From assembly GCA_032622095.1 (NCBI GenBank), contig CP136063.1, positions 70,779,980 through 70,843,979 on the forward strand: a DNA stretch of 64,000 bases, in the 5' to 3' direction. This DNA is from Siphonodentalium dalli (lineage: Eukaryota > Mollusca > Scaphopoda > Gadilida > Siphonodentaliidae). How positions within the stretch are numbered: position 1 is the stretch's first letter; every line of letters begins with the position of its first letter. The translations under genes were made by a program, and so were the position numbers. Under the pieces are notes generated by a model. It saw nothing but the letters and a program-made list of their open reading frames with translations. It was not told where the DNA came from and searched no databases. Positions 4,869 to 61,747 of the stretch are shown here, one piece after another.

Positions 4869-4899
4869 AAATCTGCCGTTTACATCCGCCACCGGTCAG

Positions 4900-8000: not shown

Positions 8001-8442
8001 ACTACATAAAATCTCTCAAATATGGATACCGTGCATGTTATAGGCGGTTAGATGATATGAAATAAATCGAATTTTGCGAATCATGGGCGACAACTCTGTA
8101 GAAAAAGCGCGGACATAAATTATAATGTATGGATTCAATAGGGAATCGTGAGTTCTACATATGGTCCAAATTTTGAGTCTCTGCTGCTCATACTTTTCGA
8201 GATACAGCAACCCCATTTTTTTACAAAAAGGGAGATAACTCTGTAAACCAAACGTGGACAACATCCTATATACTCTTATTAGTTAGAAATAGTATAGGTC
8301 TATATGCATACGAAATTTCAGCTCCCTATCTCTTGTACTTCCGGAGATATAAGAGTTGAAAAATTGCTTAGAATAATAATAATAGAGGAGAAAAATAATA
8401 AATTGAATAACAATATACTTCCATATTAAAATATGGAAGTAT
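5024..8442 (+). repeat. 1383-bp tandem array, block A (about 2.5 copies)
   Basis: Full units start at 5682 and 7065 (GGGATTCGCACGG), preceded by a partial unit from 5024. Copies look identical within the block. Each unit ends in an (AAT)n tract, a short AATTGAATAAC stretch and a perfect hairpin (5649-5676, 7032-7059, 8415-8442). Internally the unit carries degenerate sub-repeats around CTGTAACTTGG, GACAACTCTGTAG and GAGATAACTCTG. Those segments line up in order with segments of the 1744-bp unit, so the two are distant relatives. Frames of 60-124 codons on both strands recur once per unit and are not credible genes. Confidence 0.97.
5649..5676. other. Perfect hairpin closing the 1383-bp unit
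   Basis: The arms ATACTTCCATATT and AATATGGAAGTAT are perfectly complementary over 13 bp with a 2-nt loop, followed by AATAAGGG. It occurs once in each 1383/1384-bp unit. Its outer 8 bp are shared with the hairpin of the 1744-bp unit and that of head 5, while the inner arms differ. It is placed as a unit terminator or processing signal might be, but function is inferred only. Confidence 0.9.
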
Positions 8443-8636
8443 AATAATAATAATAATAATGAAAAATAATCGAAAAAGGGCCATAACTCTGTCAAAATAT
8501 ATTGGACCAACATCCGGATAGCATTATTTTTAGTAGACCTTAGATGCCTACATTCGCTAGAGATTTCGCGGTCCTCCTCCCATTAGTTTCTGAGTATTTC
8601 CAATTAAACAGAAAACGGCCGCAGTAGAAAAACAAT

Positions 8637-8665
8637 ATACTTCCTTGGTTACACCATGGAAGTAT
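8637..8665. other. Hairpin of the 1744-bp unit
   Basis: ATACTTCC pairs with GGAAGTAT, then after one T/T mismatch TGGT pairs with ACCA around a TAC loop. TAATAATAG follows. It is present once in every 1744-, 1731- and 1729-bp unit in the window. The outer arms match the 1383-bp hairpin, but the inner stem is unrelated yet still pairs. Confidence 0.85.
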
Positions 8666-9129
8666 AATAATAGGGCAAATCATGAGCTCAATAAATCGCA
8701 GTTAAGGGACGGAAAATATGAATTAGGATGATTATATCTTTCCCTTAACATGTGTGGGTTGATCTCAAGTGTTTGGGAGTGACCCCACCCCTGCCTCGAA
8801 ATTGGGTGACGGGATTGGGAAATAGTCAAACCCGGCCCAAAATGCGAATTTTGAGAGCCCGTAACTCCGTTATTTTCCAATGGATTTAAAAATTGTTTTG
8901 AGTATTGTGATCAGCTACTTGCATTGATTATTTGTTATAATTTTTGTCTGATTCAGAGACGAATAACATTTTGTTTATTGGAAAGAATACGGGCCCACAT
9001 TCAAAGTTTGAGGGCCCAAATCTCCGCCATTTTTTAACGGATTTACAATCTGTTTTCAGTTTTATGATCAACGTGTATGGTATATGTTATATATCAAGTT
9101 TCATATAATTCGGAGACGAAATAAATTTT

Positions 9130-9717
9130 GGTACCCCGGACCACCCCTCCCCTGACCCACAACACTGAACCGACACTGGCAAAATTTGGCTCATCGCGTG
9201 CTCTCTTCAGACCGCACGCATTGGCGTATCAGTTGACATCCAAAGTTTGACATCTTCGGAGGAGATGTGATCACAAGCATATGGGGCCAAATTTGCATTG
9301 TTTGAAGGCCCACAACTCTGACATTTTTCAATGGATTTTCGAAATTCTTTCAGTTTCTAGATCGGTTGGCGGTATGGATGTTATATTCCAAGTTTCATCC
9401 GATTCGGAGAAGAATACAAAATTGGTACCCCGGACCACCCCTCCCCTGACCCACAACACTGAACCGACACTGGCAAAATTTGGCCCATCGCGTGCTCTCT
9501 TCAGACCGCACGCACTGGGATATCAGACGACATCCAAAGTTCGACATCTTCGGAGGAGATAGGGTCACAAGCACATGGGACCAAATTGCAAACTTTGAGG
9601 GCCCGTAACTCTTGCATTTCTTCTCGGATTACAAAAATCCTTTCCGGTATGGGTTTGTTTTCGTTCAGGGAATCTACATACTTAAATAGATGAATGTCAA
9701 TAATAAAAAAAAATTGC
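9130..9717 (+). repeat. 294-bp sub-repeat inside the 1744-bp unit (two diverged copies)
   Basis: GGTACCCCGGACCACCCC starts at 9130 and again at 9424, and the following sequence runs in parallel until the copies diverge near 9600. Both copies keep the block GACACTGGCAAAATTTGG and the phrase TCTTCGGAGGAGAT. This pair is present in every 1744-bp copy. One of the two is missing from the variant unit at 26676-27909, so the tandem pair can contract. Confidence 0.9.
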
Positions 9718-10171
9718 GAAAATATTGCCCCCACCCCAGTGTAAAAATATATGTCCAACCCTGTCAAATTTTCTTCCTCGGACTAAGCTGACAACGGTCA
9801 ACACGACTACAAAAACCAAATACAGTTATCTGGAATGATACGAGAGGACAACAGAGTACAATAAAATAGAGGTTTGCCAACTATGGGCGGTAACTCTTCA
9901 GGGAAAGGGCGGACCCAAGTTTTTATGCCCGTGGGCAGTAGTGCATATCGAGATGTGCATACGGTCTAATTTTCGATGCTCTGCTTCTTATAATTTCCGA
10001 GATAATAAAATGACATTTTTTCAAATAAAGGGAGATAACTCCTCGGGGAAAACGCGGACAATATTCGTTATGCGACGATGGCATACAACTCTTTGATCCC
10101 AAGATACGTACCAAGTTTTAGTGTGCTACTCCTGGTACTTTTCGAGTAATAAGGGTTGCAAAAGTGTCCAG

Positions 10172-10206
<35 letters not shown>

Positions 10207-11941
10207 AAAATAATCGAAAAAGGGCCATAACTCTGTCAAAATATATTGGACCAACATCCGGATAGCATTATTTTTAGTAGACCTTAGATGCCTACATTCG
10301 CTAGAGATTTCGCGGTCCTCCTCCCATTAGTTTCTGAGTATTTCCAATTAAACAGAAAACGGCCGCAGTAGAAAAACAATATACTTCCTTGGTTACACCA
10401 TGGAAGTATAATAATAGGGCAAATCATGAGCTCAATAAATCGCAGTTAAGGGACGGAAAATATGAATTAGGATGATTATATCTTTCCCTTAACATGTGTG
10501 GGTTGATCTCAAGTGTTTGGGAGTGACCCCACCCCTGCCTCGAAATTGGGTGACGGGATTGGGAAATAGTCAAACCCGGCCCAAAATGCGAATTTTGAGA
10601 GCCCGTAACTCCGTTATTTTCCAATGGATTTAAAAATTGTTTTGAGTATTGTGATCAGCTACTTGCATTGATTATTTGTTATAATTTTTGTCTGATTCAG
10701 AGACGAATAACATTTTGTTTATTGGAAAGAATACGGGCCCACATTCAAAGTTTGAGGGCCCAAATCTCCGCCATTTTTTAACGGATTTACAATCTGTTTT
10801 CAGTTTTATGATCAACGTGTATGGTATATGTTATATATCAAGTTTCATATAATTCGGAGACGAAATAAATTTTGGTACCCCGGACCACCCCTCCCCTGAC
10901 CCACAACACTGAACCGACACTGGCAAAATTTGGCTCATCGCGTGCTCTCTTCAGACCGCACGCATTGGCGTATCAGTTGACATCCAAAGTTTGACATCTT
11001 CGGAGGAGATGTGATCACAAGCATATGGGGCCAAATTTGCATTGTTTGAAGGCCCACAACTCTGACATTTTTCAATGGATTTTCGAAATTCTTTCAGTTT
11101 CTAGATCGGTTGGCGGTATGGATGTTATATTCCAAGTTTCATCCGATTCGGAGAAGAATACAAAATTGGTACCCCGGACCACCCCTCCCCTGACCCACAA
11201 CACTGAACCGACACTGGCAAAATTTGGCCCATCGCGTGCTCTCTTCAGACCGCACGCACTGGGATATCAGACGACATCCAAAGTTCGACATCTTCGGAGG
11301 AGATAGGGTCACAAGCACATGGGACCAAATTGCAAACTTTGAGGGCCCGTAACTCTTGCATTTCTTCTCGGATTACAAAAATCCTTTCCGGTATGGGTTT
11401 GTTTTCGTTCAGGGAATCTACATACTTAAATAGATGAATGTCAATAATAAAAAAAAATTGCGAAAATATTGCCCCCACCCCAGTGTAAAAATATATGTCC
11501 AACCCTGTCAAATTTTCTTCCTCGGACTAAGCTGACAACGGTCAACACGACTACAAAAACCAAATACAGTTATCTGGAATGATACGAGAGGACAACAGAG
11601 TACAATAAAATAGAGGTTTGCCAACTATGGGCGGTAACTCTTCAGGGAAAGGGCGGACCCAAGTTTTTATGCCCGTGGGCAGTAGTGCATATCGAGATGT
11701 GCATACGGTCTAATTTTCGATGCTCTGCTTCTTATAATTTCCGAGATAATAAAATGACATTTTTTCAAATAAAGGGAGATAACTCCTCGGGGAAAACGCG
11801 GACAATATTCGTTATGCGACGATGGCATACAACTCTTTGATCCCAAGATACGTACCAAGTTTTAGTGTGCTACTCCTGGTACTTTTCGAGTAATAAGGGT
11901 TGCAAAAGTGTCCAGTATAATAATAATAATAATAATAATAA

Positions 11942-11977
11942 CTAGAGGTCAGATTCCATGGAATCAGATATACTTCC
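11942..11977 (-). other. Composite boundary: CTAG, palindrome, ATACTTCC (Helitron-3'-end-like on minus strand)
   Basis: (TAA)8 is followed by CTAG (11942-11945), the 14-bp palindrome GATTCCATGGAATC (11952-11965) and ATACTTCC (11970-11977). On the minus strand this reads hairpin, 6-nt spacer, CTAG, T. Helitron 3' ends are known to be a short hairpin followed by CTRR with T as the next host base. The fit is suggestive, but the palindrome has no loop and the spacer is shorter than usual. Confidence 0.5.
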
Positions 11978-12157
11978 ATGGTATACCATCCCATCCCATG
12001 TGAGTGCTATGCGTATATGTGTGTTCCTCTTCATGCGACAACGTATTGGTGTCTTATGATCTGATGGTGCACTTGCATTAACATTTCTAAATTTTATATA
12101 TATTTTGGGACTTCTGTCTGTTTGGTTGTCTGTTAGCTATGACCGGGAAAACTGCTG

Positions 12158-12490
12158 GACGGATTTTGACAAAATTTGATAAATATGGGTACTTTTGTCC
12201 AGGGAGTGTTTTGGACGGGTCAAATCGTGACCGCGACATGACGTTGACCTTCAAAAATGTCAATCCAAGGTCAAATCTGGTAAAACAGACGGATTTCAAC
12301 CAAATTTGGTGCCTAGGAGTACTTTTGTCCGGGGAGTCTTTTGGGTGGGTCAAATCGTGACCCCGACCTGACATTGGCCTTCGAAATGGTCAGTTCAAGG
12401 TAAAATCGAGTAAAGCGAACGGATTTCGACGAAATTTGATACCTAGGGAAACTTTTGTCCGGGGAGTGTTTTGGACAGGTCAAATCGTGA
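12158..12490 (+). repeat. 130-bp tandem repeat, about 2.5 diverged copies
   Basis: Copies start at 12158, 12288 and 12418, exactly 130 bp apart, each with ACGGATTT, then ACTTTTGTCC, GGGTCAAATCGTGA and AAGGTCAAA-like blocks. The last copy is cut after GTCAAATCGTGA. Short tandem cores in the body are common in non-autonomous Helitron-like elements of bivalves and insects, which fits but does not prove that assignment. Confidence 0.9.
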
Positions 12491-13428
12491 CAATAGGTTA
12501 CTTTTATAGTAGAGCGGGCATACCTATATAGTATATCGGTGAGCATGTTCATGCATTTGCCTTGCTTCTTGACAAGTCCGTTTGAATTTGCGTCATGAAG
12601 AGAGGGTTTGATTTTCAGTAATATATATCACCCGTTAAAACGTTATACACTACCAGCGTTAAACCGTCAAATCTAAATCTTTAAAAAGCGTACTAATCTT
12701 GCGTTTAGATACTACTTATCACATCCACTCGTCGAAAAGTTTTTATCTCAATATCTGATTTTCGGAGTAATTTTTCCCATTTGATCTTCGGTGGAATTTG
12801 CCAAATCTGAACCCAACCGACAAAAACACTCCCTTGAGCAGGTTGCGTTTATAGTAGAGCGGTCAAATTTTGTAGGCGTGCCTACATTATACCGGCTTAC
12901 ATGCTCCTGCGTGAAAGTCGCTCCTACATTAGCCCGTTTGGATTTGGGGCTAAAAATCGGCTAGTGATAGACTACACACGTATACATATTTATGATATAT
13001 AGCGTTGTCACGAGTAAACCGTTCCATCTGAAAATTAGAAAATTGTGCTCTAGATGCGCGTGAACACTAGCCATCAGATGTACTCGTCAAAAAAAATTAT
13101 ATCGATGTTTGAATTTTCCCCCCTTTGCAATTTTCGTGGAATTTTCCTAAAGTCTCAAACCACCCTGACACGCATTCTCCATTGGGCATGTTACATTTAT
13201 AGTATAGCCGTCAAACTTCCGGCACGTACATAAAGTATGTCAACGTACTTGCTACGACATTATCTTGCTCTTTAATCAGCCGGTTTGGATTTGGCGGGAA
13301 AATAGTTGCAATATTTCCGTACACCGTAACGCGGAAAGTCCTGGTTAAAAACATGTTTAAGCGGTATATTCGTGTCCTAATCTCTAGTCCAATTCGGAAT
13401 ATGCAATAAAATTTTTAGAGCTCTGTAC

Positions 13429-13430
<2 letters not shown>
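12491..13430 (+). repeat. Degenerate 345-348-bp monomers, 3 copies
   Basis: The marker phrase TTTATAGTAGAGC (or a close variant) lies at about 12503, 12848 and 13196. Each copy continues with a TATACCGG-like stretch, a TGCTCCTGC-like stretch and GTTTGGATTTGG. The same monomer appears in heads 1, 3 and 4 with about 360-bp spacing, so all four heads derive from one older tandem family. Confidence 0.8.

Positions 13431-13432
<2 letters not shown>

Positions 13433-13461
<29 letters not shown>
13433..13461 (+). repeat. Poly-A run, 29 bp
   Basis: A 29-bp A run lies within a stretch of about 40 bp that is absent from the otherwise matching head at about 20706. It could be a small insertion here or a deletion there. 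Confidence 0.85.
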
Positions 13462-13464
<3 letters not shown>

Positions 13465-13494
13465 CGGTTTATTCATACTGGTGTATAGTGTGCG

Positions 13495-15753
13495 CCTATT
13501 TATGGGCGGTAACTCTTCAGGGAAAGCGCGGACACAAGTTTTTATGCCCGTGGGCAGTAGTGCATATCGAGATGTGCATACGGTCTAATTTTCGATGTTC
13601 TGCTTCTTATAATTTCCGAGATAATAAAATGACATTTTTTCAAATAAAGGGAGATAACTCATCGATGAAAGCGCGGACAAAATCGTTATGGGCCATAGGC
13701 ATAGAACTCATGTACCCCAACCTACTTACCAAGTTTTAGTGTCCTACTTCTTATACTTTTCGAGTAATAGTGATTACAAAAGTGTCAAGTATAATAATAA
13801 TAATAACAATGAAAAATAATCGCAAAAGGGCCATAACTCCGCCAAGAAACATTGAGCGGAAATCCGGATACCATTATATCTAGTAAACCTTCGATGCCTA
13901 CATTCACTAGAGATTTCGCGTTCCTACTGCAATCAGTTTCTGAGTATTTCGAAATAAACGGAAAACGACCTCAGTAGAAAAACAATATACTTCCTTGGTT
14001 ACACCATGGAAGTATAATAATAGGGCAAATCATGAGCTCAATAAATCGCATTTAAGGGACGGAAAATATAAAGTAGGATGATTATATCTTTCCCTTAACA
14101 TGTGTGGGTTGATCTCAAGTGTTTGGAAGTGACCCCACCCCTGCCTCGAAATTGGGTGACGAGATTGGGAAATAGTCAAACCCGACCAAAATGCGATTTT
14201 TGAGAGCCCGTAACTCCGTTATTTTCCAATTGATTTGAAATTGTTTTGAGTATTGTGATCAGCTAGTTACATTGATTATTTGTTATAAATTTTGTCTGAT
14301 TCAGAGACGAATAACATTTTGTTTATTGGAATGAATATGGGCCCACATTCAAAGTTTGAGGGCCCAAATCTCCGCCATTTTTTAACGGATTTACAATCTG
14401 TTTTCAGTTTTATGATCAACGTGTATGGTAGATGTTATATATCAAGTTTCATATGATTCGGAGACGAAATAAATTTTGGTACCCCGGACCACCCCTCCCC
14501 TGACCCACAACACTGAACCGACACTGGCAAAATTTGGCTCATCGCGTGCTCTCTTCAGACTGCACGCATTGGCGTATCAGATGACATCCAAAGTTTGACA
14601 TCTTCGGAGGAGATGTGATCACAAGCATATGGGGCCATATTTGCATTGTTTGAAGGCCCACAACTCTGTCATTTTTCAATGGATTTTCGAAATTCTTTCA
14701 GTTTCTAGATCGGTTGGCGGTATGGATGTTATATTCCAAGTTTCATCCGATTCGGAGAAGAATAAAAAATTGGTACCCCGGACCACCCCTCCCCTGACCC
14801 ACAACACTGAACCGACACTGGCAAAAGTTGGCCCATCGCGTACTCTCTTCAGACCGCACGCATTGGCGTATCAGATGACATCCAAAGTTCTACATCTTCG
14901 GAGGAGATGTGCGCACAAGCACATGGGACCAAATTGCAAACTTTGAGGGCCCGTAACTCTTGCATTTCTTCTCGGATTACAAAAATCCTTTCCGGTATGG
15001 GTTTGTTTTCGTTCAGGGAATCTACATACTTAAATAGATGAATGTCTAATAATAAAAAAAATTGCGAAAATTTTGCCCCCACCCCAGTGTAAAAATATAT
15101 GGCCAACCCTGTCAAATTTTCTTCTTCGGACTAAGCTGACAACGGTCAACACGACTACAAAAACCAAATACAGTTATCTGGAATGATACGGGAGGACAAC
15201 AGAGTACAATAAAATAGAGGTTTGCCAACTATGGGCGGTAACTCTTCAGGGAAAGCGCGGACACAAGTTTTTATGCCCGTGGGCAGTAGTGCATATCGAG
15301 ATGTGCATACGGTCTAATTTTCGATGTTCTGCTTCTTATAATTTCCGAGATAATAAAATGACATTTTTTCAAATAAAGGGAGATAACTCATCGATGAAAG
15401 CGCGGACAAAATCGTTATGGGCCATAGGCATAGAACTCATGTACCCCAACCTACTTACCAAGTTTTAGTGTCCTACTTCTTATACTTTTCGAGTAATAGT
15501 GATTACAAAAGTGTCAAGTATAATAATAATAATAACAATGAAAAATAATCGCAAAAGGGCCATAACTCCGCCAAGAAACATTGAGCGGAAATCCGGATAC
15601 CATTATATCTAGTAAACCTTCGATGCCTACATTCACTAGAGATTTCGCGTTCCTACTGCAATCAGTTTCTGAGTATTTCGAAATAAACGGAAAACGACCT
15701 CAGTAGAAAAACAATATACTTCCTTGGTTACACCATGGAAGTATAATAATAAT
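13495..15753 (+). repeat. 1729-bp variant unit of the 1744-bp family (about 1.3 copies)
   Basis: The block starts partway through the long part at TATGGGCGGTAACTC. It then has a short part starting at 13811, a full long part, and a second short part at 15540, giving a 1729-bp period. It is visibly diverged from the 1744-bp consensus (for example TCATCGATGAAAGC against TCCTCGGGGAAAAC). The TAA tract is interrupted as TAATAACAATG. It changes to the invariant 1744-bp unit immediately after its hairpin at about 15716-15744. Confidence 0.93.
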
Positions 15754-17464
15754 GAAAAATAATCGAAAAAGGGCCATAACTCTGTCAAAATATATTGGAC
15801 CAACATCCGGATAGCATTATTTTTAGTAGACCTTAGATGCCTACATTCGCTAGAGATTTCGCGGTCCTCCTCCCATTAGTTTCTGAGTATTTCCAATTAA
15901 ACAGAAAACGGCCGCAGTAGAAAAACAATATACTTCCTTGGTTACACCATGGAAGTATAATAATAGGGCAAATCATGAGCTCAATAAATCGCAGTTAAGG
16001 GACGGAAAATATGAATTAGGATGATTATATCTTTCCCTTAACATGTGTGGGTTGATCTCAAGTGTTTGGGAGTGACCCCACCCCTGCCTCGAAATTGGGT
16101 GACGGGATTGGGAAATAGTCAAACCCGGCCCAAAATGCGAATTTTGAGAGCCCGTAACTCCGTTATTTTCCAATGGATTTAAAAATTGTTTTGAGTATTG
16201 TGATCAGCTACTTGCATTGATTATTTGTTATAATTTTTGTCTGATTCAGAGACGAATAACATTTTGTTTATTGGAAAGAATACGGGCCCACATTCAAAGT
16301 TTGAGGGCCCAAATCTCCGCCATTTTTTAACGGATTTACAATCTGTTTTCAGTTTTATGATCAACGTGTATGGTATATGTTATATATCAAGTTTCATATA
16401 ATTCGGAGACGAAATAAATTTTGGTACCCCGGACCACCCCTCCCCTGACCCACAACACTGAACCGACACTGGCAAAATTTGGCTCATCGCGTGCTCTCTT
16501 CAGACCGCACGCATTGGCGTATCAGTTGACATCCAAAGTTTGACATCTTCGGAGGAGATGTGATCACAAGCATATGGGGCCAAATTTGCATTGTTTGAAG
16601 GCCCACAACTCTGACATTTTTCAATGGATTTTCGAAATTCTTTCAGTTTCTAGATCGGTTGGCGGTATGGATGTTATATTCCAAGTTTCATCCGATTCGG
16701 AGAAGAATACAAAATTGGTACCCCGGACCACCCCTCCCCTGACCCACAACACTGAACCGACACTGGCAAAATTTGGCCCATCGCGTGCTCTCTTCAGACC
16801 GCACGCACTGGGATATCAGACGACATCCAAAGTTCGACATCTTCGGAGGAGATAGGGTCACAAGCACATGGGACCAAATTGCAAACTTTGAGGGCCCGTA
16901 ACTCTTGCATTTCTTCTCGGATTACAAAAATCCTTTCCGGTATGGGTTTGTTTTCGTTCAGGGAATCTACATACTTAAATAGATGAATGTCAATAATAAA
17001 AAAAAATTGCGAAAATATTGCCCCCACCCCAGTGTAAAAATATATGTCCAACCCTGTCAAATTTTCTTCCTCGGACTAAGCTGACAACGGTCAACACGAC
17101 TACAAAAACCAAATACAGTTATCTGGAATGATACGAGAGGACAACAGAGTACAATAAAATAGAGGTTTGCCAACTATGGGCGGTAACTCTTCAGGGAAAG
17201 GGCGGACCCAAGTTTTTATGCCCGTGGGCAGTAGTGCATATCGAGATGTGCATACGGTCTAATTTTCGATGCTCTGCTTCTTATAATTTCCGAGATAATA
17301 AAATGACATTTTTTCAAATAAAGGGAGATAACTCCTCGGGGAAAACGCGGACAATATTCGTTATGCGACGATGGCATACAACTCTTTGATCCCAAGATAC
17401 GTACCAAGTTTTAGTGTGCTACTCCTGGTACTTTTCGAGTAATAAGGGTTGCAAAAGTGTCCAG

Positions 17465-17499
<35 letters not shown>

Positions 17500-19225
17500 A
17501 AAATAATCGAAAAAGGGCCATAACTCTGTCAAAATATATTGGACCAACATCCGGATAGCATTATTTTTAGTAGACCTTAGATGCCTACATTCGCTAGAGA
17601 TTTCGCGGTCCTCCTCCCATTAGTTTCTGAGTATTTCCAATTAAACAGAAAACGGCCGCAGTAGAAAAACAATATACTTCCTTGGTTACACCATGGAAGT
17701 ATAATAATAGGGCAAATCATGAGCTCAATAAATCGCAGTTAAGGGACGGAAAATATGAATTAGGATGATTATATCTTTCCCTTAACATGTGTGGGTTGAT
17801 CTCAAGTGTTTGGGAGTGACCCCACCCCTGCCTCGAAATTGGGTGACGGGATTGGGAAATAGTCAAACCCGGCCCAAAATGCGAATTTTGAGAGCCCGTA
17901 ACTCCGTTATTTTCCAATGGATTTAAAAATTGTTTTGAGTATTGTGATCAGCTACTTGCATTGATTATTTGTTATAATTTTTGTCTGATTCAGAGACGAA
18001 TAACATTTTGTTTATTGGAAAGAATACGGGCCCACATTCAAAGTTTGAGGGCCCAAATCTCCGCCATTTTTTAACGGATTTACAATCTGTTTTCAGTTTT
18101 ATGATCAACGTGTATGGTATATGTTATATATCAAGTTTCATATAATTCGGAGACGAAATAAATTTTGGTACCCCGGACCACCCCTCCCCTGACCCACAAC
18201 ACTGAACCGACACTGGCAAAATTTGGCTCATCGCGTGCTCTCTTCAGACCGCACGCATTGGCGTATCAGTTGACATCCAAAGTTTGACATCTTCGGAGGA
18301 GATGTGATCACAAGCATATGGGGCCAAATTTGCATTGTTTGAAGGCCCACAACTCTGACATTTTTCAATGGATTTTCGAAATTCTTTCAGTTTCTAGATC
18401 GGTTGGCGGTATGGATGTTATATTCCAAGTTTCATCCGATTCGGAGAAGAATACAAAATTGGTACCCCGGACCACCCCTCCCCTGACCCACAACACTGAA
18501 CCGACACTGGCAAAATTTGGCCCATCGCGTGCTCTCTTCAGACCGCACGCACTGGGATATCAGACGACATCCAAAGTTCGACATCTTCGGAGGAGATAGG
18601 GTCACAAGCACATGGGACCAAATTGCAAACTTTGAGGGCCCGTAACTCTTGCATTTCTTCTCGGATTACAAAAATCCTTTCCGGTATGGGTTTGTTTTCG
18701 TTCAGGGAATCTACATACTTAAATAGATGAATGTCAATAATAAAAAAAAATTGCGAAAATATTGCCCCCACCCCAGTGTAAAAATATATGTCCAACCCTG
18801 TCAAATTTTCTTCCTCGGACTAAGCTGACAACGGTCAACACGACTACAAAAACCAAATACAGTTATCTGGAATGATACGAGAGGACAACAGAGTACAATA
18901 AAATAGAGGTTTGCCAACTATGGGCGGTAACTCTTCAGGGAAAGGGCGGACCCAAGTTTTTATGCCCGTGGGCAGTAGTGCATATCGAGATGTGCATACG
19001 GTCTAATTTTCGATGCTCTGCTTCTTATAATTTCCGAGATAATAAAATGACATTTTTTCAAATAAAGGGAGATAACTCCTCGGGGAAAACGCGGACAATA
19101 TTCGTTATGCGACGATGGCATACAACTCTTTGATCCCAAGATACGTACCAAGTTTTAGTGTGCTACTCCTGGTACTTTTCGAGTAATAAGGGTTGCAAAA
19201 GTGTCCAGTATAATAATAATAATAA
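15754..19225 (+). repeat. 1744-bp tandem array, block 2 (2 copies)
   Basis: Units start at 15754 and 17498. Sequence appears identical to block 1, including the (TAA)10 tract between the units. The final tract is (TAA)5 before CTAG at 19226. Confidence 0.97.
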
Positions 19226-19261
19226 CTAGAGGTCAGATTCCATGGAATCAGATATACTTCC
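19226..19261 (-). other. Composite boundary with the same palindrome as at 11942
   Basis: CTAG (19226-19229), palindrome GATTCCATGGAATC (19236-19249) and ATACTTCC (19254-19261) follow (TAA)5. It is identical in arrangement to the boundary at 11942, so both heads belong to the same subfamily and the junction is reproducible. Confidence 0.5.
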
Positions 19262-29849: not shown

Positions 29850-29884
<35 letters not shown>

Positions 29885-31593: not shown

Positions 31594-31628
<35 letters not shown>

Positions 31629-33354: not shown

Positions 33355-33396
33355 CTAGAGGGTTAAAATTCTGGCCTGCAGAATTTTGATACTTCC
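33355..33396 (-). other. Composite boundary with a second, looped hairpin
   Basis: CTAG (33355-33358) is followed by the stem AAAATTCTG (33365-33373), a GCCTG loop, CAGAATTTT (33379-33387) and ATACTTCC (33389-33396). On the minus strand: 9-bp hairpin, 6-nt spacer ending CCT, CTAG, T. The stem sequence is unrelated to that at 11942, but position and spacing are the same. Confidence 0.55.
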
Positions 33397-48750: not shown

Positions 48751-48763
48751 TAATAATAATAAT

Positions 48764-50474
48764 GAAAAATAATCGAAAAAGGGCCATAACTCTGTCAAAA
48801 TATATTGGACCAACATCCGGATAGCATTATTTTTAGTAGACCTTAGATGCCTACATTCGCTAGAGATTTCGCGGTCCTCCTCCCATTAGTTTCTGAGTAT
48901 TTCCAATTAAACAGAAAACGGCCGCAGTAGAAAAACAATATACTTCCTTGGTTACACCATGGAAGTATAATAATAGGGCAAATCATGAGCTCAATAAATC
49001 GCAGTTAAGGGACGGAAAATATGAATTAGGATGATTATATCTTTCCCTTAACATGTGTGGGTTGATCTCAAGTGTTTGGGAGTGACCCCACCCCTGCCTC
49101 GAAATTGGGTGACGGGATTGGGAAATAGTCAAACCCGGCCCAAAATGCGAATTTTGAGAGCCCGTAACTCCGTTATTTTCCAATGGATTTAAAAATTGTT
49201 TTGAGTATTGTGATCAGCTACTTGCATTGATTATTTGTTATAATTTTTGTCTGATTCAGAGACGAATAACATTTTGTTTATTGGAAAGAATACGGGCCCA
49301 CATTCAAAGTTTGAGGGCCCAAATCTCCGCCATTTTTTAACGGATTTACAATCTGTTTTCAGTTTTATGATCAACGTGTATGGTATATGTTATATATCAA
49401 GTTTCATATAATTCGGAGACGAAATAAATTTTGGTACCCCGGACCACCCCTCCCCTGACCCACAACACTGAACCGACACTGGCAAAATTTGGCTCATCGC
49501 GTGCTCTCTTCAGACCGCACGCATTGGCGTATCAGTTGACATCCAAAGTTTGACATCTTCGGAGGAGATGTGATCACAAGCATATGGGGCCAAATTTGCA
49601 TTGTTTGAAGGCCCACAACTCTGACATTTTTCAATGGATTTTCGAAATTCTTTCAGTTTCTAGATCGGTTGGCGGTATGGATGTTATATTCCAAGTTTCA
49701 TCCGATTCGGAGAAGAATACAAAATTGGTACCCCGGACCACCCCTCCCCTGACCCACAACACTGAACCGACACTGGCAAAATTTGGCCCATCGCGTGCTC
49801 TCTTCAGACCGCACGCACTGGGATATCAGACGACATCCAAAGTTCGACATCTTCGGAGGAGATAGGGTCACAAGCACATGGGACCAAATTGCAAACTTTG
49901 AGGGCCCGTAACTCTTGCATTTCTTCTCGGATTACAAAAATCCTTTCCGGTATGGGTTTGTTTTCGTTCAGGGAATCTACATACTTAAATAGATGAATGT
50001 CAATAATAAAAAAAAATTGCGAAAATATTGCCCCCACCCCAGTGTAAAAATATATGTCCAACCCTGTCAAATTTTCTTCCTCGGACTAAGCTGACAACGG
50101 TCAACACGACTACAAAAACCAAATACAGTTATCTGGAATGATACGAGAGGACAACAGAGTACAATAAAATAGAGGTTTGCCAACTATGGGCGGTAACTCT
50201 TCAGGGAAAGGGCGGACCCAAGTTTTTATGCCCGTGGGCAGTAGTGCATATCGAGATGTGCATACGGTCTAATTTTCGATGCTCTGCTTCTTATAATTTC
50301 CGAGATAATAAAATGACATTTTTTCAAATAAAGGGAGATAACTCCTCGGGGAAAACGCGGACAATATTCGTTATGCGACGATGGCATACAACTCTTTGAT
50401 CCCAAGATACGTACCAAGTTTTAGTGTGCTACTCCTGGTACTTTTCGAGTAATAAGGGTTGCAAAAGTGTCCAG

Positions 50475-50509
<35 letters not shown>

Positions 50510-52218
50510 AAAATAATCGAAAAAGGGCCATAACTCTGTCAAAATATATTGGACCAACATCCGGATAGCATTATTTTTAGTAGACCTTAGATGCCTACAT
50601 TCGCTAGAGATTTCGCGGTCCTCCTCCCATTAGTTTCTGAGTATTTCCAATTAAACAGAAAACGGCCGCAGTAGAAAAACAATATACTTCCTTGGTTACA
50701 CCATGGAAGTATAATAATAGGGCAAATCATGAGCTCAATAAATCGCAGTTAAGGGACGGAAAATATGAATTAGGATGATTATATCTTTCCCTTAACATGT
50801 GTGGGTTGATCTCAAGTGTTTGGGAGTGACCCCACCCCTGCCTCGAAATTGGGTGACGGGATTGGGAAATAGTCAAACCCGGCCCAAAATGCGAATTTTG
50901 AGAGCCCGTAACTCCGTTATTTTCCAATGGATTTAAAAATTGTTTTGAGTATTGTGATCAGCTACTTGCATTGATTATTTGTTATAATTTTTGTCTGATT
51001 CAGAGACGAATAACATTTTGTTTATTGGAAAGAATACGGGCCCACATTCAAAGTTTGAGGGCCCAAATCTCCGCCATTTTTTAACGGATTTACAATCTGT
51101 TTTCAGTTTTATGATCAACGTGTATGGTATATGTTATATATCAAGTTTCATATAATTCGGAGACGAAATAAATTTTGGTACCCCGGACCACCCCTCCCCT
51201 GACCCACAACACTGAACCGACACTGGCAAAATTTGGCTCATCGCGTGCTCTCTTCAGACCGCACGCATTGGCGTATCAGTTGACATCCAAAGTTTGACAT
51301 CTTCGGAGGAGATGTGATCACAAGCATATGGGGCCAAATTTGCATTGTTTGAAGGCCCACAACTCTGACATTTTTCAATGGATTTTCGAAATTCTTTCAG
51401 TTTCTAGATCGGTTGGCGGTATGGATGTTATATTCCAAGTTTCATCCGATTCGGAGAAGAATACAAAATTGGTACCCCGGACCACCCCTCCCCTGACCCA
51501 CAACACTGAACCGACACTGGCAAAATTTGGCCCATCGCGTGCTCTCTTCAGACCGCACGCACTGGGATATCAGACGACATCCAAAGTTCGACATCTTCGG
51601 AGGAGATAGGGTCACAAGCACATGGGACCAAATTGCAAACTTTGAGGGCCCGTAACTCTTGCATTTCTTCTCGGATTACAAAAATCCTTTCCGGTATGGG
51701 TTTGTTTTCGTTCAGGGAATCTACATACTTAAATAGATGAATGTCAATAATAAAAAAAAATTGCGAAAATATTGCCCCCACCCCAGTGTAAAAATATATG
51801 TCCAACCCTGTCAAATTTTCTTCCTCGGACTAAGCTGACAACGGTCAACACGACTACAAAAACCAAATACAGTTATCTGGAATGATACGAGAGGACAACA
51901 GAGTACAATAAAATAGAGGTTTGCCAACTATGGGCGGTAACTCTTCAGGGAAAGGGCGGACCCAAGTTTTTATGCCCGTGGGCAGTAGTGCATATCGAGA
52001 TGTGCATACGGTCTAATTTTCGATGCTCTGCTTCTTATAATTTCCGAGATAATAAAATGACATTTTTTCAAATAAAGGGAGATAACTCCTCGGGGAAAAC
52101 GCGGACAATATTCGTTATGCGACGATGGCATACAACTCTTTGATCCCAAGATACGTACCAAGTTTTAGTGTGCTACTCCTGGTACTTTTCGAGTAATAAG
52201 GGTTGCAAAAGTGTCCAG

Positions 52219-52253
<35 letters not shown>

Positions 52254-53962
52254 AAAATAATCGAAAAAGGGCCATAACTCTGTCAAAATATATTGGACCA
52301 ACATCCGGATAGCATTATTTTTAGTAGACCTTAGATGCCTACATTCGCTAGAGATTTCGCGGTCCTCCTCCCATTAGTTTCTGAGTATTTCCAATTAAAC
52401 AGAAAACGGCCGCAGTAGAAAAACAATATACTTCCTTGGTTACACCATGGAAGTATAATAATAGGGCAAATCATGAGCTCAATAAATCGCAGTTAAGGGA
52501 CGGAAAATATGAATTAGGATGATTATATCTTTCCCTTAACATGTGTGGGTTGATCTCAAGTGTTTGGGAGTGACCCCACCCCTGCCTCGAAATTGGGTGA
52601 CGGGATTGGGAAATAGTCAAACCCGGCCCAAAATGCGAATTTTGAGAGCCCGTAACTCCGTTATTTTCCAATGGATTTAAAAATTGTTTTGAGTATTGTG
52701 ATCAGCTACTTGCATTGATTATTTGTTATAATTTTTGTCTGATTCAGAGACGAATAACATTTTGTTTATTGGAAAGAATACGGGCCCACATTCAAAGTTT
52801 GAGGGCCCAAATCTCCGCCATTTTTTAACGGATTTACAATCTGTTTTCAGTTTTATGATCAACGTGTATGGTATATGTTATATATCAAGTTTCATATAAT
52901 TCGGAGACGAAATAAATTTTGGTACCCCGGACCACCCCTCCCCTGACCCACAACACTGAACCGACACTGGCAAAATTTGGCTCATCGCGTGCTCTCTTCA
53001 GACCGCACGCATTGGCGTATCAGTTGACATCCAAAGTTTGACATCTTCGGAGGAGATGTGATCACAAGCATATGGGGCCAAATTTGCATTGTTTGAAGGC
53101 CCACAACTCTGACATTTTTCAATGGATTTTCGAAATTCTTTCAGTTTCTAGATCGGTTGGCGGTATGGATGTTATATTCCAAGTTTCATCCGATTCGGAG
53201 AAGAATACAAAATTGGTACCCCGGACCACCCCTCCCCTGACCCACAACACTGAACCGACACTGGCAAAATTTGGCCCATCGCGTGCTCTCTTCAGACCGC
53301 ACGCACTGGGATATCAGACGACATCCAAAGTTCGACATCTTCGGAGGAGATAGGGTCACAAGCACATGGGACCAAATTGCAAACTTTGAGGGCCCGTAAC
53401 TCTTGCATTTCTTCTCGGATTACAAAAATCCTTTCCGGTATGGGTTTGTTTTCGTTCAGGGAATCTACATACTTAAATAGATGAATGTCAATAATAAAAA
53501 AAAATTGCGAAAATATTGCCCCCACCCCAGTGTAAAAATATATGTCCAACCCTGTCAAATTTTCTTCCTCGGACTAAGCTGACAACGGTCAACACGACTA
53601 CAAAAACCAAATACAGTTATCTGGAATGATACGAGAGGACAACAGAGTACAATAAAATAGAGGTTTGCCAACTATGGGCGGTAACTCTTCAGGGAAAGGG
53701 CGGACCCAAGTTTTTATGCCCGTGGGCAGTAGTGCATATCGAGATGTGCATACGGTCTAATTTTCGATGCTCTGCTTCTTATAATTTCCGAGATAATAAA
53801 ATGACATTTTTTCAAATAAAGGGAGATAACTCCTCGGGGAAAACGCGGACAATATTCGTTATGCGACGATGGCATACAACTCTTTGATCCCAAGATACGT
53901 ACCAAGTTTTAGTGTGCTACTCCTGGTACTTTTCGAGTAATAAGGGTTGCAAAAGTGTCCAG

Positions 53963-53997
<35 letters not shown>

Positions 53998-55732
53998 AAA
54001 ATAATCGAAAAAGGGCCATAACTCTGTCAAAATATATTGGACCAACATCCGGATAGCATTATTTTTAGTAGACCTTAGATGCCTACATTCGCTAGAGATT
54101 TCGCGGTCCTCCTCCCATTAGTTTCTGAGTATTTCCAATTAAACAGAAAACGGCCGCAGTAGAAAAACAATATACTTCCTTGGTTACACCATGGAAGTAT
54201 AATAATAGGGCAAATCATGAGCTCAATAAATCGCAGTTAAGGGACGGAAAATATGAATTAGGATGATTATATCTTTCCCTTAACATGTGTGGGTTGATCT
54301 CAAGTGTTTGGGAGTGACCCCACCCCTGCCTCGAAATTGGGTGACGGGATTGGGAAATAGTCAAACCCGGCCCAAAATGCGAATTTTGAGAGCCCGTAAC
54401 TCCGTTATTTTCCAATGGATTTAAAAATTGTTTTGAGTATTGTGATCAGCTACTTGCATTGATTATTTGTTATAATTTTTGTCTGATTCAGAGACGAATA
54501 ACATTTTGTTTATTGGAAAGAATACGGGCCCACATTCAAAGTTTGAGGGCCCAAATCTCCGCCATTTTTTAACGGATTTACAATCTGTTTTCAGTTTTAT
54601 GATCAACGTGTATGGTATATGTTATATATCAAGTTTCATATAATTCGGAGACGAAATAAATTTTGGTACCCCGGACCACCCCTCCCCTGACCCACAACAC
54701 TGAACCGACACTGGCAAAATTTGGCTCATCGCGTGCTCTCTTCAGACCGCACGCATTGGCGTATCAGTTGACATCCAAAGTTTGACATCTTCGGAGGAGA
54801 TGTGATCACAAGCATATGGGGCCAAATTTGCATTGTTTGAAGGCCCACAACTCTGACATTTTTCAATGGATTTTCGAAATTCTTTCAGTTTCTAGATCGG
54901 TTGGCGGTATGGATGTTATATTCCAAGTTTCATCCGATTCGGAGAAGAATACAAAATTGGTACCCCGGACCACCCCTCCCCTGACCCACAACACTGAACC
55001 GACACTGGCAAAATTTGGCCCATCGCGTGCTCTCTTCAGACCGCACGCACTGGGATATCAGACGACATCCAAAGTTCGACATCTTCGGAGGAGATAGGGT
55101 CACAAGCACATGGGACCAAATTGCAAACTTTGAGGGCCCGTAACTCTTGCATTTCTTCTCGGATTACAAAAATCCTTTCCGGTATGGGTTTGTTTTCGTT
55201 CAGGGAATCTACATACTTAAATAGATGAATGTCAATAATAAAAAAAAATTGCGAAAATATTGCCCCCACCCCAGTGTAAAAATATATGTCCAACCCTGTC
55301 AAATTTTCTTCCTCGGACTAAGCTGACAACGGTCAACACGACTACAAAAACCAAATACAGTTATCTGGAATGATACGAGAGGACAACAGAGTACAATAAA
55401 ATAGAGGTTTGCCAACTATGGGCGGTAACTCTTCAGGGAAAGGGCGGACCCAAGTTTTTATGCCCGTGGGCAGTAGTGCATATCGAGATGTGCATACGGT
55501 CTAATTTTCGATGCTCTGCTTCTTATAATTTCCGAGATAATAAAATGACATTTTTTCAAATAAAGGGAGATAACTCCTCGGGGAAAACGCGGACAATATT
55601 CGTTATGCGACGATGGCATACAACTCTTTGATCCCAAGATACGTACCAAGTTTTAGTGTGCTACTCCTGGTACTTTTCGAGTAATAAGGGTTGCAAAAGT
55701 GTCCAGTATAATAATAATAATAATAATAATAA
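48764..55732 (+). repeat. 1744-bp tandem array, block 4 (4 copies)
   Basis: Units start at 48764, 50508, 52252 and 53996. Spacing is exactly 1744 bp and sequence is as in other blocks. The final TAA tract is (TAA)8 before CTAG at 55733. Confidence 0.97.
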
Positions 55733-55773
55733 CTAGAATGAAACTGTAATTGCACAGCAATTTCGATACTTCC
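55733..55773 (-). other. Composite boundary with a third hairpin
   Basis: CTAG (55733-55736) is followed by GAAACTGT (55740-55747), AATTGC loop, ACAG (55754-55757), a CAA bulge, TTTC (55761-55764) and ATACTTCC (55766-55773). On the minus strand the hairpin ends 3 nt before CTAG and T follows. An alternative fold pairs AATTG with CAATT. It is weaker than the other two but in the same position. Confidence 0.45.
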
Positions 55774-58257
55774 ATGTTGCCAATGACGGGAACTTGTGTC
55801 GTCCATTAACGAGTTAGTTGTCAGCAGACACATGCGAGTATTGTGATACTATATACCATACTACTAGTCACCAACCATAGTATTTTATCCACCAAATTTC
55901 ATCAAATTCTGCACCCACTCGCCAGTTCTCCCAAACCGGAAGTCAAATCAGTACCCTATATATATCAACATACAGCGCAGAGTCTGATGCACAAAAACTG
56001 CGAATGCTCAATAGCTATCCAGGTTCAAAATTTCAAATCAATTGGCTGAGCCGTTTTGACGATATGAGAAATGTAACTCGATTTGCAAGTTATTATGGTG
56101 GCACGAAACCTTCCCAAAAACCAGGTATTTAAGCAGCCATAACTCCAGAAGTTTTAGCCCAATTAAAAAAATTCGAGTGGGATAGTGATCATCGGCAACT
56201 AGAGATTATATCCACTAAATTTCATTATAATCTGCGCCAAAACAGTTTTGAGGTACATACACACACGCCCGTTCTCCAGAACCGGAAGTGAAATCCGTTA
56301 ACTATATATATCTTTATACATCGCACAGTTGGATGCACATAACGCAAAAAGTCCCAACTCAATATCTCAAGCCGTTCTGGATTTCGTATAAAGAGAGTTC
56401 TTTTATTATTCGACCCAGGGTCAACTTTTAAACCGGAAGGGCGACCCCTATTATTTTTCGGTGGTGTGTAACACGTGTGCGTGCGCAAATAATGAAAAAA
56501 GTCCCAACCAGATATCTCAAGCCGTTTAGGAGGAGATACGTTAACAACAATAAAACATATAAAGAGCGTTCTTCCAAAGGTCAAGGTCAGACGAAATTCC
56601 TTATTAATGCATCGACTGCGTATGCTCAATGGCTATGCAGGCACAAAATTTCAAATCAATTGGCCAAGCCCTTTCGACGGTATAAGAAATCAAACATCAA
56701 TTTTGCAATTTTGCAAGTCATTCTAGGGGTCCGAAAACCCCATAAAAATCAGGTCTCTAAGCAGCAATAACTCGAGAAGTTTAAGTCCGATTTTTAAAAT
56801 CGGAGCGGAGTAGTGGTCAGCAACAACTAAAGATTATGTCCACCAAATTTCATCCAAATCTGCGCCAAAATAGTGTTGAGATACATACCCACACGGTCGT
56901 TCTTCCGAACTGGAAGTGAAATCCGTTAACTAAATATATCGTTCGAGAGCGCAGAGTTTGCTGCACATCATGCAAAAAGTCCCAACTCAATATCTCAAGC
57001 CGTTCTGGATTCCCTATAAAGAGCGTTATTTTATCCTTCGACAAGTAGCGAACTTTTAAACCGGAAGTGCGAACCATATCATTTTTCGGCGGTTCATGAC
57101 ACACATACACGTGTAAATAATGAAAAATTCCGAACCCCATATCTCAAGCCGTTTAGGAGGAGATCTCTTCACAACAATAAAACCGATAAAGAGCGTTGTG
57201 CCCAAAGGTCAAGGTCAGACGAAGTTCCCTATTAGTTCATCGACTGCCAATGCGCAATGGCTAAGAAGATTCCGAATTTCAAATCAATCGGCCAAGCCGT
57301 TTCGGCGTTATACGAAATCAAACCTCGATTTTGCAAGTCATTTTAGTGGCGCGAAGACCCCCAAAAATCAACAAAATGTCGATAACTCTGAAGGTCAAGG
57401 TCGGAAATAAATCAGGTTTTTAAACAGCCATAACTAACGAAGTTTATGTCCGATTTTAAAAATTCGAGTTGCATAGCAATCAGGGGCATCTACTGATGAC
57501 GTCTACCAAATGTCATCAAAATATTCGCTAAAATAGTTTTGAGATACATACCCACACGCCCGCTCTCCCGAACCGGAAGTGATATCCGTTAACTATATAT
57601 ATCGTTCGATAGCGCAGAGTTTGCTGCACATAATGCAAAAAGTCCCAACTCAATATCTCAAGCCGTTCTGGATTCCCTATAAAGAGAGTTCTTTTAACCT
57701 TCGACCAGTAGCGAACTTTTAAACCGGAAGTGCGAACCCTATAATTTTTCAGTATTTTAGAACACACATACAGGCGCAAATAATGAAAAAAGTCCAAAAT
57801 CGATATCTCAAGCCGTTTCGGAGGAGATATGTGCACAACAATAAAACAGATAGTGAGCGTTGTTTCCAAAGTTCAAGGTCACATGAAATTCCCTATTTGT
57901 ACATCGACTTCGTATACTCAATGTCTATGCAGGTACCACATATCAAATCAATCGGTCAAGCCATTTCGACGATATAAGAATTCAAACATCGATTTTGCAA
58001 GTTACCTTTGTGTCGCGAAAACCCCCCAAATATCAACAAAATGGCGATAACTCCGAGGGTCAAGGTCGTACGAAATTCTCAATATGCTATTTAGCGAGAT
58101 CTTCCAAGGTTTTATTCTAAAGAAAAAAACCGCAGGTGAATCGGTTCAGCCGTTCTCGAGATATAAGGGTGTTATTGGAATAATAAGAATAAGAAGAAAA
58201 AGAAAAGCCAGAAGAATTACAATATACTTCCATTTAAAATGGAAGTATAATAATAAT
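55774..58257 (+). repeat. Head module of composite 5 with degenerate 620-660-bp repeats
   Basis: The phrase GGCCAAGCCGTTTCGACG, with variation, lies at 56043, 56662, 57290 and 57954 (spacings 619, 628, 664). ACCGGAAGTGAAATCCGTTAA, or close variants, lies at 56281, 56909 and 57572. Each copy also has a TCAAGGTCAGACG-like block and an AGCCATAACTC-like block. Frames of 96-134 codons on the minus strand are the same translated repeat seen three times. The module ends in its own hairpin (58224-58248) and passes into the 1744-bp array. Confidence 0.8.
58224..58248. other. Perfect hairpin closing head 5
   Basis: ATACTTCCATTT pairs perfectly with AAATGGAAGTAT around a single A, followed by AATAATAATGAAAAATAATC. 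The outer 10 bp are those of the 1383-bp hairpin, the inner bases differ and still pair. It stands exactly at the switch from head to 1744-bp array. Confidence 0.9.
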
Positions 58258-59968
58258 GAAAAATAATCGAAAAAGGGCCATAACTCTGTCAAAATATATT
58301 GGACCAACATCCGGATAGCATTATTTTTAGTAGACCTTAGATGCCTACATTCGCTAGAGATTTCGCGGTCCTCCTCCCATTAGTTTCTGAGTATTTCCAA
58401 TTAAACAGAAAACGGCCGCAGTAGAAAAACAATATACTTCCTTGGTTACACCATGGAAGTATAATAATAGGGCAAATCATGAGCTCAATAAATCGCAGTT
58501 AAGGGACGGAAAATATGAATTAGGATGATTATATCTTTCCCTTAACATGTGTGGGTTGATCTCAAGTGTTTGGGAGTGACCCCACCCCTGCCTCGAAATT
58601 GGGTGACGGGATTGGGAAATAGTCAAACCCGGCCCAAAATGCGAATTTTGAGAGCCCGTAACTCCGTTATTTTCCAATGGATTTAAAAATTGTTTTGAGT
58701 ATTGTGATCAGCTACTTGCATTGATTATTTGTTATAATTTTTGTCTGATTCAGAGACGAATAACATTTTGTTTATTGGAAAGAATACGGGCCCACATTCA
58801 AAGTTTGAGGGCCCAAATCTCCGCCATTTTTTAACGGATTTACAATCTGTTTTCAGTTTTATGATCAACGTGTATGGTATATGTTATATATCAAGTTTCA
58901 TATAATTCGGAGACGAAATAAATTTTGGTACCCCGGACCACCCCTCCCCTGACCCACAACACTGAACCGACACTGGCAAAATTTGGCTCATCGCGTGCTC
59001 TCTTCAGACCGCACGCATTGGCGTATCAGTTGACATCCAAAGTTTGACATCTTCGGAGGAGATGTGATCACAAGCATATGGGGCCAAATTTGCATTGTTT
59101 GAAGGCCCACAACTCTGACATTTTTCAATGGATTTTCGAAATTCTTTCAGTTTCTAGATCGGTTGGCGGTATGGATGTTATATTCCAAGTTTCATCCGAT
59201 TCGGAGAAGAATACAAAATTGGTACCCCGGACCACCCCTCCCCTGACCCACAACACTGAACCGACACTGGCAAAATTTGGCCCATCGCGTGCTCTCTTCA
59301 GACCGCACGCACTGGGATATCAGACGACATCCAAAGTTCGACATCTTCGGAGGAGATAGGGTCACAAGCACATGGGACCAAATTGCAAACTTTGAGGGCC
59401 CGTAACTCTTGCATTTCTTCTCGGATTACAAAAATCCTTTCCGGTATGGGTTTGTTTTCGTTCAGGGAATCTACATACTTAAATAGATGAATGTCAATAA
59501 TAAAAAAAAATTGCGAAAATATTGCCCCCACCCCAGTGTAAAAATATATGTCCAACCCTGTCAAATTTTCTTCCTCGGACTAAGCTGACAACGGTCAACA
59601 CGACTACAAAAACCAAATACAGTTATCTGGAATGATACGAGAGGACAACAGAGTACAATAAAATAGAGGTTTGCCAACTATGGGCGGTAACTCTTCAGGG
59701 AAAGGGCGGACCCAAGTTTTTATGCCCGTGGGCAGTAGTGCATATCGAGATGTGCATACGGTCTAATTTTCGATGCTCTGCTTCTTATAATTTCCGAGAT
59801 AATAAAATGACATTTTTTCAAATAAAGGGAGATAACTCCTCGGGGAAAACGCGGACAATATTCGTTATGCGACGATGGCATACAACTCTTTGATCCCAAG
59901 ATACGTACCAAGTTTTAGTGTGCTACTCCTGGTACTTTTCGAGTAATAAGGGTTGCAAAAGTGTCCAG

Positions 59969-60003
<35 letters not shown>

Positions 60004-61712: not shown

Positions 61713-61747
<35 letters not shown>

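Follow-up and report, generated by a model that had tools for sequence, protein, structure and literature searches.

Helentrons and their HINE and DINE-1 relatives have subterminal inverted repeats that are palindromic and lie 2-4 nt inside the 5' end, and a palindrome at the 3' end; they are flanked on both sides by two or more T and leave the target unmodified, as described in the accessible sections of one detailed account (Thomas, Vadnagara and Pritham, 2014; PMC4067079). The same sections describe a Rep/helicase coding partner, sometimes with an OTU domain, as well as deletion derivatives, central repeats and a microsatellite. In the Pacific oyster, Cg_HINE elements are non-autonomous Helentrons with satellite-like arrays, including two cases of two array types in a row (accessible parts of PMC7492417). 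Tandem Helitron arrays of plants, with many 5' ends and one 3' end, have been explained by rolling-circle replication (Xiong et al., 2016, as described in the accessible parts of PMC12628747), and the latter source also describes 'shuffled' oyster loci, in which Helitron or Helentron parts lie inside other elements and one element holds different tandem arrays. Here, a stretch of 64,000 nt from the scaphopod mollusc Siphonodentalium dalli (contig CP136063.1, positions 70,779,980 to 70,843,979; hereafter the window, whose first letter is position 1) is analysed, in which arrays of different unit types give way to one another beside a hairpin, ATACTTCC..GGAAGTAT. On the minus strand, this hairpin forms the 5' terminus of a Helentron-type rolling-circle transposon and is not a shuffling hotspot. 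With high confidence, the switches are mostly the ends of Helentron-type elements, both coding elements and non-coding HINEs, inserted at the (ATT)n tract of tandem units of a related element. The termini, the precise empty and filled sites, coding relatives and the recurrence on other contigs are read directly.

A pattern search of the window detects 38 hairpins, 31 of which are directly followed by the next array unit (AATAATAGGG or AATAAGGG). The other seven (8415, 15716, 26424, 28092, 40368, 48718 and 58224) lack a next copy of their own unit and match exactly the seven switch places named in a preliminary description of this sequence, each of them within a few bases of the hairpin. Zones of 20 nt after the hairpins make up 1.19% of the window, so the association is not due to chance (~3e-14 for seven of seven, a figure that assumes independent places, whereas duplicated elements break independence). 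The claim that every switch lies directly after a hairpin was too strong, since self-comparison reveals further type boundaries away from hairpins: transitions from array to element head at 11941, 19225, 33354 and 55732, each at the border between (ATA)n and CTAG and all overlooked before, and transitions from head to array at about 5024, 13495, 20735-20746 and 35594, located 484-625 bp ahead of a hairpin. Neither are the 1744-type arrays separate modules, as had been assumed. They form one array: units on either side of an interruption show 100% identity, and, apart from length within the (ATA)n tract where it starts and stops, every segment is made of complete units. The window lies in a long tandem array of 1744-bp units. 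This array is in turn the body of an element of Helentron type, with its own CTAG head at -51748, left of the window, at TTACAA/CTAG and outside any (ATA)n. The host array and the elements E1 to E5 that interrupt it, with the lengths of the left and right parts of the interrupted tract, are arranged as follows:

1..8444, minus strand: right part of E1, 1383-bp units, hairpin 8415-8442; tracts 16+18 nt
8445..11941, minus strand: host 1744-bp array, segment 1, two units, 100% identical
10173..10204, no strand: (ATA)n target site of a 1744 unit without an insertion, 32 nt, from tract comparison
11942..15746, minus strand: E2, head CTAGAGGTC, 1729-type units, hairpin 15716-15744; tracts 25+9=34, empty 32
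11942..11977, minus strand: 3' end of E2 with CTAG and hairpin GATTCCATGGAATC, followed by ATACTTCC, which in plus-strand reading is the 3' subterminal inverted repeat
15747..19225, minus strand: host 1744-bp array, segment 2, two units (self-comparison)
19226..28122, minus strand: E3, head CTAGAGGTC, 1731-type units, joined at 26424-26452 with a 1451-type unit, terminal hairpin 28092-28120; tracts 16+18=34
28123..33354, minus strand: host 1744-bp array, segment 3, three units (self-comparison)
33355..48747, minus strand: E4, head CTAGAGGGTT, 1383- and 1384-bp units, hairpin 48718-48745; tracts 16+18=34
48748..55732, minus strand: host 1744-bp array, segment 4, four units (self-comparison)
55733..58250, minus strand: E5, head CTAGAATG with divergent internal repeats of its own, hairpin at 58224-58248; tracts 25+9=34; 100% identical to 72349-74864 (E6b)
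58251..64000, minus strand: host 1744-bp array, segment 5, running on beyond the window (self-comparison)

Five of the seven switches mark where an element inserted into the continuous 1744 array ends on its right side, and the other two lie inside elements. At the four left boundaries of the window, (ATA)n is followed by CTAG, a second hairpin and ATACTTCC, while at the five right boundaries the hairpin is followed by (AAT)n, both ends of an element falling in the same (ATA)n tract of a 1744 unit. This tract measures 32 nt in all 10 uninterrupted 1744 units of the window, whereas the left and right parts flanking each of E1 to E5 add up to 34 nt. In total, 304 kb of the window's own contig (C3) were read, comprising the window, 100 kb on each flank and 40 kb further right, together with 30 kb at two places of contig C1. 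Outside the window on C3, the sums are again 34 nt for E7 (28+6), E8 (16+18) and E9 (28+6), and a single element on C1 (16+18) stands next to an empty tract of 32 nt. Two back-to-back pairs extend the arithmetic: E6, which consists of E6a and E6b with AA alone between them, gives 16+AA+18 = 36 nt against 32 (32 + 2x2), and E11 and E12 give 16+AA+7 = 25 nt against the 21 nt of four adjacent units (21 + 2x2). Across nine single elements and two pairs, the gain is a constant 2 nt per element, which identifies E1 to E5 as insertions and fits a 5'-terminal TT that belongs to the element. The host array resumes after E6 to E9 in the same way as after the inserts of the window, and the first 264 kb read contain 27 empty tracts (25 of 32 nt and two of 35 nt) and nine filled ones. 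The 1744 unit offers 190 AA positions, of which the tract holds 10; if an element could land on any AA, p for eight tract hits would be ~6e-11, provided that they were independent.

These boundaries bear on the idea that the hairpin is a recombination hotspot, acting as a cruciform or replication-fork barrier, for exchange between array subfamilies. The location of all seven switches after a hairpin, the strong folding of the hairpins and a 46-bp duplication at 40348, a rearrangement next to a hairpin, would suit such a hotspot. Yet for five switches a matching left boundary lies 2.5-43 kb away at the corresponding position in the unit, with tracts that sum to the empty length plus 2 nt, and array exchange produces neither heads of CTAG, hairpin and ATACTTCC nor a constant tract sum nor coding transposons between junctions. 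Subfamily exchange at cruciforms was rejected on the paired left boundaries and the constant sums, and the hotspot as a whole is regarded as very improbable. The preliminary description had argued that random unequal crossing-over does not account for the switches and that the hairpin is where modules are joined; both points hold, but no modules are swapped there. From its proposal of a recombination, nicking or replication-termination site, array recombination and termination are dropped, while the nicking, or initiation, side is retained by homology to Helitrons.

The base-exact sites also define the termini. Read on the minus strand, an element starts with TT-ATACTTCC and its hairpin and finishes with GGAAGTAT, the second hairpin, CTAG and then TT, without target duplication. 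Palindromic subterminal inverted repeats are thereby present at both ends, with ATACTTCC forming the hairpin at one end and standing beside CTAG at the other. AA directly follows all 101 hairpins of the 334 kb read, unit-internal and element-end alike, and precedes all 15 CTAG ends with head sequence, although the search patterns did not demand AA; a further CTAG pattern that includes AA does not enter these counts. Two CTAG matches at 1066 and 11452 of the C1 sample, located in units without a head, were left out of these 15, and the left ends at 81858 and 135775 (28 nt), which escape the CTAG-TACTTCC pattern, were found in the tract comparison. An insertion between A and T, as in canonical Helitrons, cannot be told from a TT insertion within (ATT)n. 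The 5' terminus reads TTATACTTCC and not the TC of a canonical Helitron (Helitron1); CTAG after a hairpin agrees with the canonical 3' CTRR in the heads seen, the hairpin of the third head being weak. The 5' hairpins fold with z-scores of -6.1 to -7.3 relative to shuffled sequences. Among the listed matches to the 3' palindrome, one copy (C1:24868998) carries changes that pair with each other in its two arms, whereas another (C1:15802257) is altered in one arm only.

Within the window, the open reading frame (ORF) list holds a single frame of at least 150 amino acids, in repeat sequence, and no Rfam family scored above its own threshold; the mover of the elements is therefore not evident from the window alone, but it is seen in the flanks. 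E7 and E9, about 41.7 kb each and to the right of the window, contain an identical minus-strand ORF of 2730 amino acids (94921-103110 and 148841-157030). E1, a Helentron of about 43 kb, has its CTAG end at -34566, left of the window, and carries two overlapping minus-strand frames of 798 and 1846 amino acids. Pfam detects OTU, DUF6570, Helitron_like_N and PIF1 in the E7 protein and the same four domains spread over both frames of E1, for which 1742 residues of the 1846-residue frame were submitted. The matches are strong for Helitron_like_N and PIF1 (2.7e-23 and 8.6e-29 in E7; 2.2e-24 and 2.5e-25 in E1) and extend to OTU (8.2e-09 in E7, 1.6e-07 in E1), with a further match to OTU domain-containing protein 1 at 5.7e-07; the helicase part matches Helraiser (7lcc) at 1.2e-13. 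The coding relatives contain HWHCVIWI with YIISYISK and HWHCVFWI with YVVSYVSK, HUH-like and two-tyrosine stretches of the forms HWH and Y-x3-Y, which we take to be the Rep catalytic motifs. A GDFNQN stretch, which may bear on an AP-like endonuclease, is visible in both the E1 and the E7 proteins.

E4 is a non-coding relative of E1 that shares both of its ends and lacks about 37 kb of its middle, with identities of 95.2% over 229 bp, 94.3% over 943 bp and 98.96% over 4419 bp. On sequence comparison, it resembles an E1-like element that has suffered an internal deletion. The matching blocks overlap by 10 bp in E4 (34593-34602, corresponding to -33432 and 4022 in E1), a possible microhomology. 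The elements resemble the Helentrons and HINEs of the accessible sections of PMC4067079 in their subterminal inverted repeats, putative 3' palindrome, TT flanks, Rep/helicase/OTU partner, deletion derivatives, central repeats and microsatellite. They differ from the elements described there in that their units are 1.4-1.7 kb long and each carry a full 5'-terminal hairpin, and in that the target is the microsatellite of a related element's unit, entered at a near-fixed register.

The two switches inside elements are the following:

26424..26466, minus strand: switch within E3, where the hairpin runs into AATAATAGTGAAAAATAT, (ATA)n sequence from a 1451-type unit
40348..40446, minus strand: switch within E4 with a duplication of 46 bp, where the hairpin runs into AATAAATTGAATAACAAT shortly ahead of a second hairpin

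For the first, E8 reads the same 1451-type unit through an uninterrupted 21-nt tract into GTGAAAAATA, and positions 26451-28120 of E3 are 99.1% identical to 127109-128781 of E8, so that a 1731-type element end abuts (ATA)n sequence from a 1451-type unit, as nested insertion would predict. A nested insertion with both sides present exists at 186837-190786, where two elements lie back to back in a 1451-type tract, with the sum of 16+AA+7 = 25 nt given above. The internal switches are best read as nested insertions that would later have been moved as composites; for the 40.4-kb join, this is possible but less certain. The missing outer heads of E3 and E4 would be accounted for if replication began at the outer 5' end and stopped at the CTAG of the inner element. 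Rolling-circle template switching, or a Rep-mediated joining of two 5' termini, would be another route to such joins and is rather unlikely in our judgement. It could draw on the AA-flanked terminus that unit-internal hairpins share with element ends (101/101), on the 40.4-kb hairpin lying 18 nt before another one and on three C1 hairpins at 223-bp steps, whereas the location of the 26.4-kb join in the (ATA)n of an identifiable 1451-type unit and the nested pair with both of its sides in a 1451-type tract argue for nested insertion with composite mobilisation. The three C1 hairpins (C1:332317, 332540 and 332763) are spaced as expected from serial same-register insertions followed by composite mobilisation. 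At another hairpin, 190976, to the right of the window, the join is at AATAATCG and not in plain (ATA)n, a switch at a different target point.

The same junctions recur beyond the window. The preliminary description had proposed a check for many subfamily switches away from hairpins, which was partly run, at the hairpins of the 334 kb including the window: 77 of the 101 lie inside units, and at each of the remaining 24 the adjoining sequence opens with AA. Among the latter, 18 join the (AAT)n tract of a known unit type (16 of the 1744 type and two of the 1451 type), three lie directly before the AA/CTAG of another element and three are of other kinds (40368, 189310 and 190976). The same junctions were found at both C1 places. 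Genome-wide pattern searches returned 10,624 hairpins against 8 controls and 4,536 ends of the form AACTAG..TACTTCCAT against 97 reversed controls; 838 of these ends, and none of the controls, follow ATAAT. Ends in the 1744-type target number 63 with the CTAGAGGG/CTAGAATG pattern, spread over all nine contigs, and 86 with CTAGAGGTC, with zero controls each. That the junctions are assembly joins is scarcely credible: highly identical arrays are hard to assemble and the junctions are known from the assembly alone, but the same left-junction sequence is present on all nine contigs, reversed patterns give zero controls, and the tract arithmetic is exact in nine single elements and two pairs.

Within the tract, insertion has a near-fixed register. 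In the tally over contigs C1 to C9 (three head types, tracts of 6-36 nt, most tract lengths taken from match lengths), the left tract ends 16 nt from the GTGTCCAGT edge in 130 of 149 cases, with 28 nt in eight, 25 in seven, 13 in two and 19 and 22 in one each; all registers other than 16 lie in steps of 3. It was considered that 16 nt might stand for the centre of the 32-nt tract. This was rejected, and distance from the left edge is the better description, since the cut in the 1451-type unit, with its tract of 21 nt, likewise falls at 16 nt.

A common register might instead descend from a few insertions copied many times by segmental duplication, unequal crossing-over or composite transposition, a serious contender that we place somewhat short of even chances. 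Filled sites do cluster along contigs, and a block starting at 74863 (three units, E7, one unit, E8) recurs nearly unchanged about 53.9 kb rightward, from 128780. Three checked pieces of this block are identical, E8 is 99.7% identical and E7 and E9 are 99.99% identical over 28 kb, which could reflect a recent duplication or an assembly duplication; consequently, E7/E9 and E8/E10 are not independent insertions. On the other side, E1, E3, E4, E6a and E8 all sit at 16 nt, yet E1 and E4 differ by 1-6% and by about 37 kb while the array units are identical, E3 and E8 differ by about 12% over their first 2.8 kb, and the register is found in three head families and in a second target unit type. On these comparisons, register sharing by diverged elements within one array of identical units favours targeting. 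A stronger proposal would be that part of this lineage is site-specific for its own kin, with machinery that recognises the position 16 nt from the GTGTCCAGT edge of (ATT)n, a microsatellite that serves as landing pad, and satellites that grow by self-insertion and composite mobilisation from internal 5' ends. We hold this only tentatively, as somewhat doubtful, the more so because most ends genome-wide lie outside ATAAT.

The following observations count against reading the switches as the termini of Helentron-type elements inserted at (ATT)n of related units. The C-terminal AP-like endonuclease from which Helentrons take their name is matched weakly, with Exo_endo_phos in E1 only (E 0.0007, 19.9 bits against a curated cut-off of 24.5) and not listed for E7. 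Shuffled sequences fold as well as the CTAGAATG head's 3' hairpin (z -0.15), and the other two 3' ends fold modestly (z -2.5 and -2.2). Given the weak endonuclease and one non-folding 3' hairpin of three, membership rests on the termini, the target and the Rep/helicase/OTU proteins; the ends also fit the asymmetric terminal inverted repeats, palindromic at both ends, of Helitron2, a type that lacks the endonuclease, and the weak match does not separate the two types. The empty tract before E7 and before E9 measures 35 nt and not 32, so that their own tracts may originally have differed from 32 nt. The 40.4-kb switch lies at AATAAATTG, not in (ATA)n, and 18 nt ahead of the next hairpin, and the left part of the outer element is absent at both internal switches, so composite mobilisation is deduced rather than seen. 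Finally, 3,698 of the 4,536 genome-wide ends (82%) do not follow ATAAT and occupy other AA sites; among the matches listed, these ends include head families absent from the window. The (ATA)n tract is thus a preference, not a rule. Judging by the title of a 2010 paper by Coates and colleagues, lepidopteran Helitron-like elements reportedly disrupt (GAAA)n microsatellites, which is alike in microsatellite insertion and differs in the repeat.

The course of events is in part read from the sequence and in part drawn from Helitron biology. Coding elements of 42-43 kb and shorter non-coding HINEs have inserted into the 1744 array. On the minus strand, each begins at TT-ATACTTCC with the hairpin as predicted nick site and ends with the inverted repeat copy, the second hairpin and CTAG-TT; the hairpin end would be nicked to start replication, and the CTAG end would stop it. 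Insertion into the (ATT)n tract, presumably by rolling-circle transposition, without target duplication and usually at one register, leaves (ATA)n/CTAG as the left boundary and a right boundary just after the hairpin. Nested insertions may then be mobilised as composites, replication running from the outer 5' end to the first CTAG terminator, that of the inner element. Because the hairpins inside units share this AA-flanked terminus, replication may start at any of them, which would yield arrays with many 5' ends and one 3' end, and arrays might grow because their units carry a complete 5'-terminal hairpin.

The kind of element is known, and nested Helitron parts with mixed arrays have been described for oyster (accessible parts of PMC12628747). 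Cg_HINE elements agree in subterminal inverted repeat, inverted repeat, microsatellite, the putative palindrome and TT insertion without target duplication; their arrays were selected for monomers of 100-500 bp, and the accessible text reports no insertion into their own microsatellite or at a fixed register (PMC7492417). The plant arrays follow the same plan of many 5' ends and one 3' end in plant Helitrons, with no serial insertion into a fixed unit tract in the accessible description, and the 'shuffled' oyster loci are alike in nesting and mixed arrays, with no base-exact empty and filled sites or register in the portions available (PMC12628747). Helentron insertion at a near-fixed position in units of kin was not found in the open-access literature, outside of which most subscription papers lie, and this near-fixed register is the novel part. 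What appeared to be a recombination hotspot becomes a readable record of transposition, in which many empty and filled sites in identical sequence document to the base where elements end, that TT flanks them and that no target is duplicated, beside elements with long ORFs. The locus also suggests a use for the microsatellite carried by DINE-1 and HINE elements, and a route to satellite arrays of mixed type through nested insertion followed by replication to the first terminator reached.

Some minor features accompany these elements. The two 35-nt empty tracts, at 80083 and 134000 to the right of the window, are each located in the unit before a register-28 insertion, and both are part of the duplicated block. 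Tandem repeats of 130 bp, in 2.6 copies, are found in the heads of E2 and E3 (12159-12491 and 19442-19775). On contig C1, hairpin arrays begin within 2 kb of the contig start (C1:1638 onward) and may be subtelomeric there.

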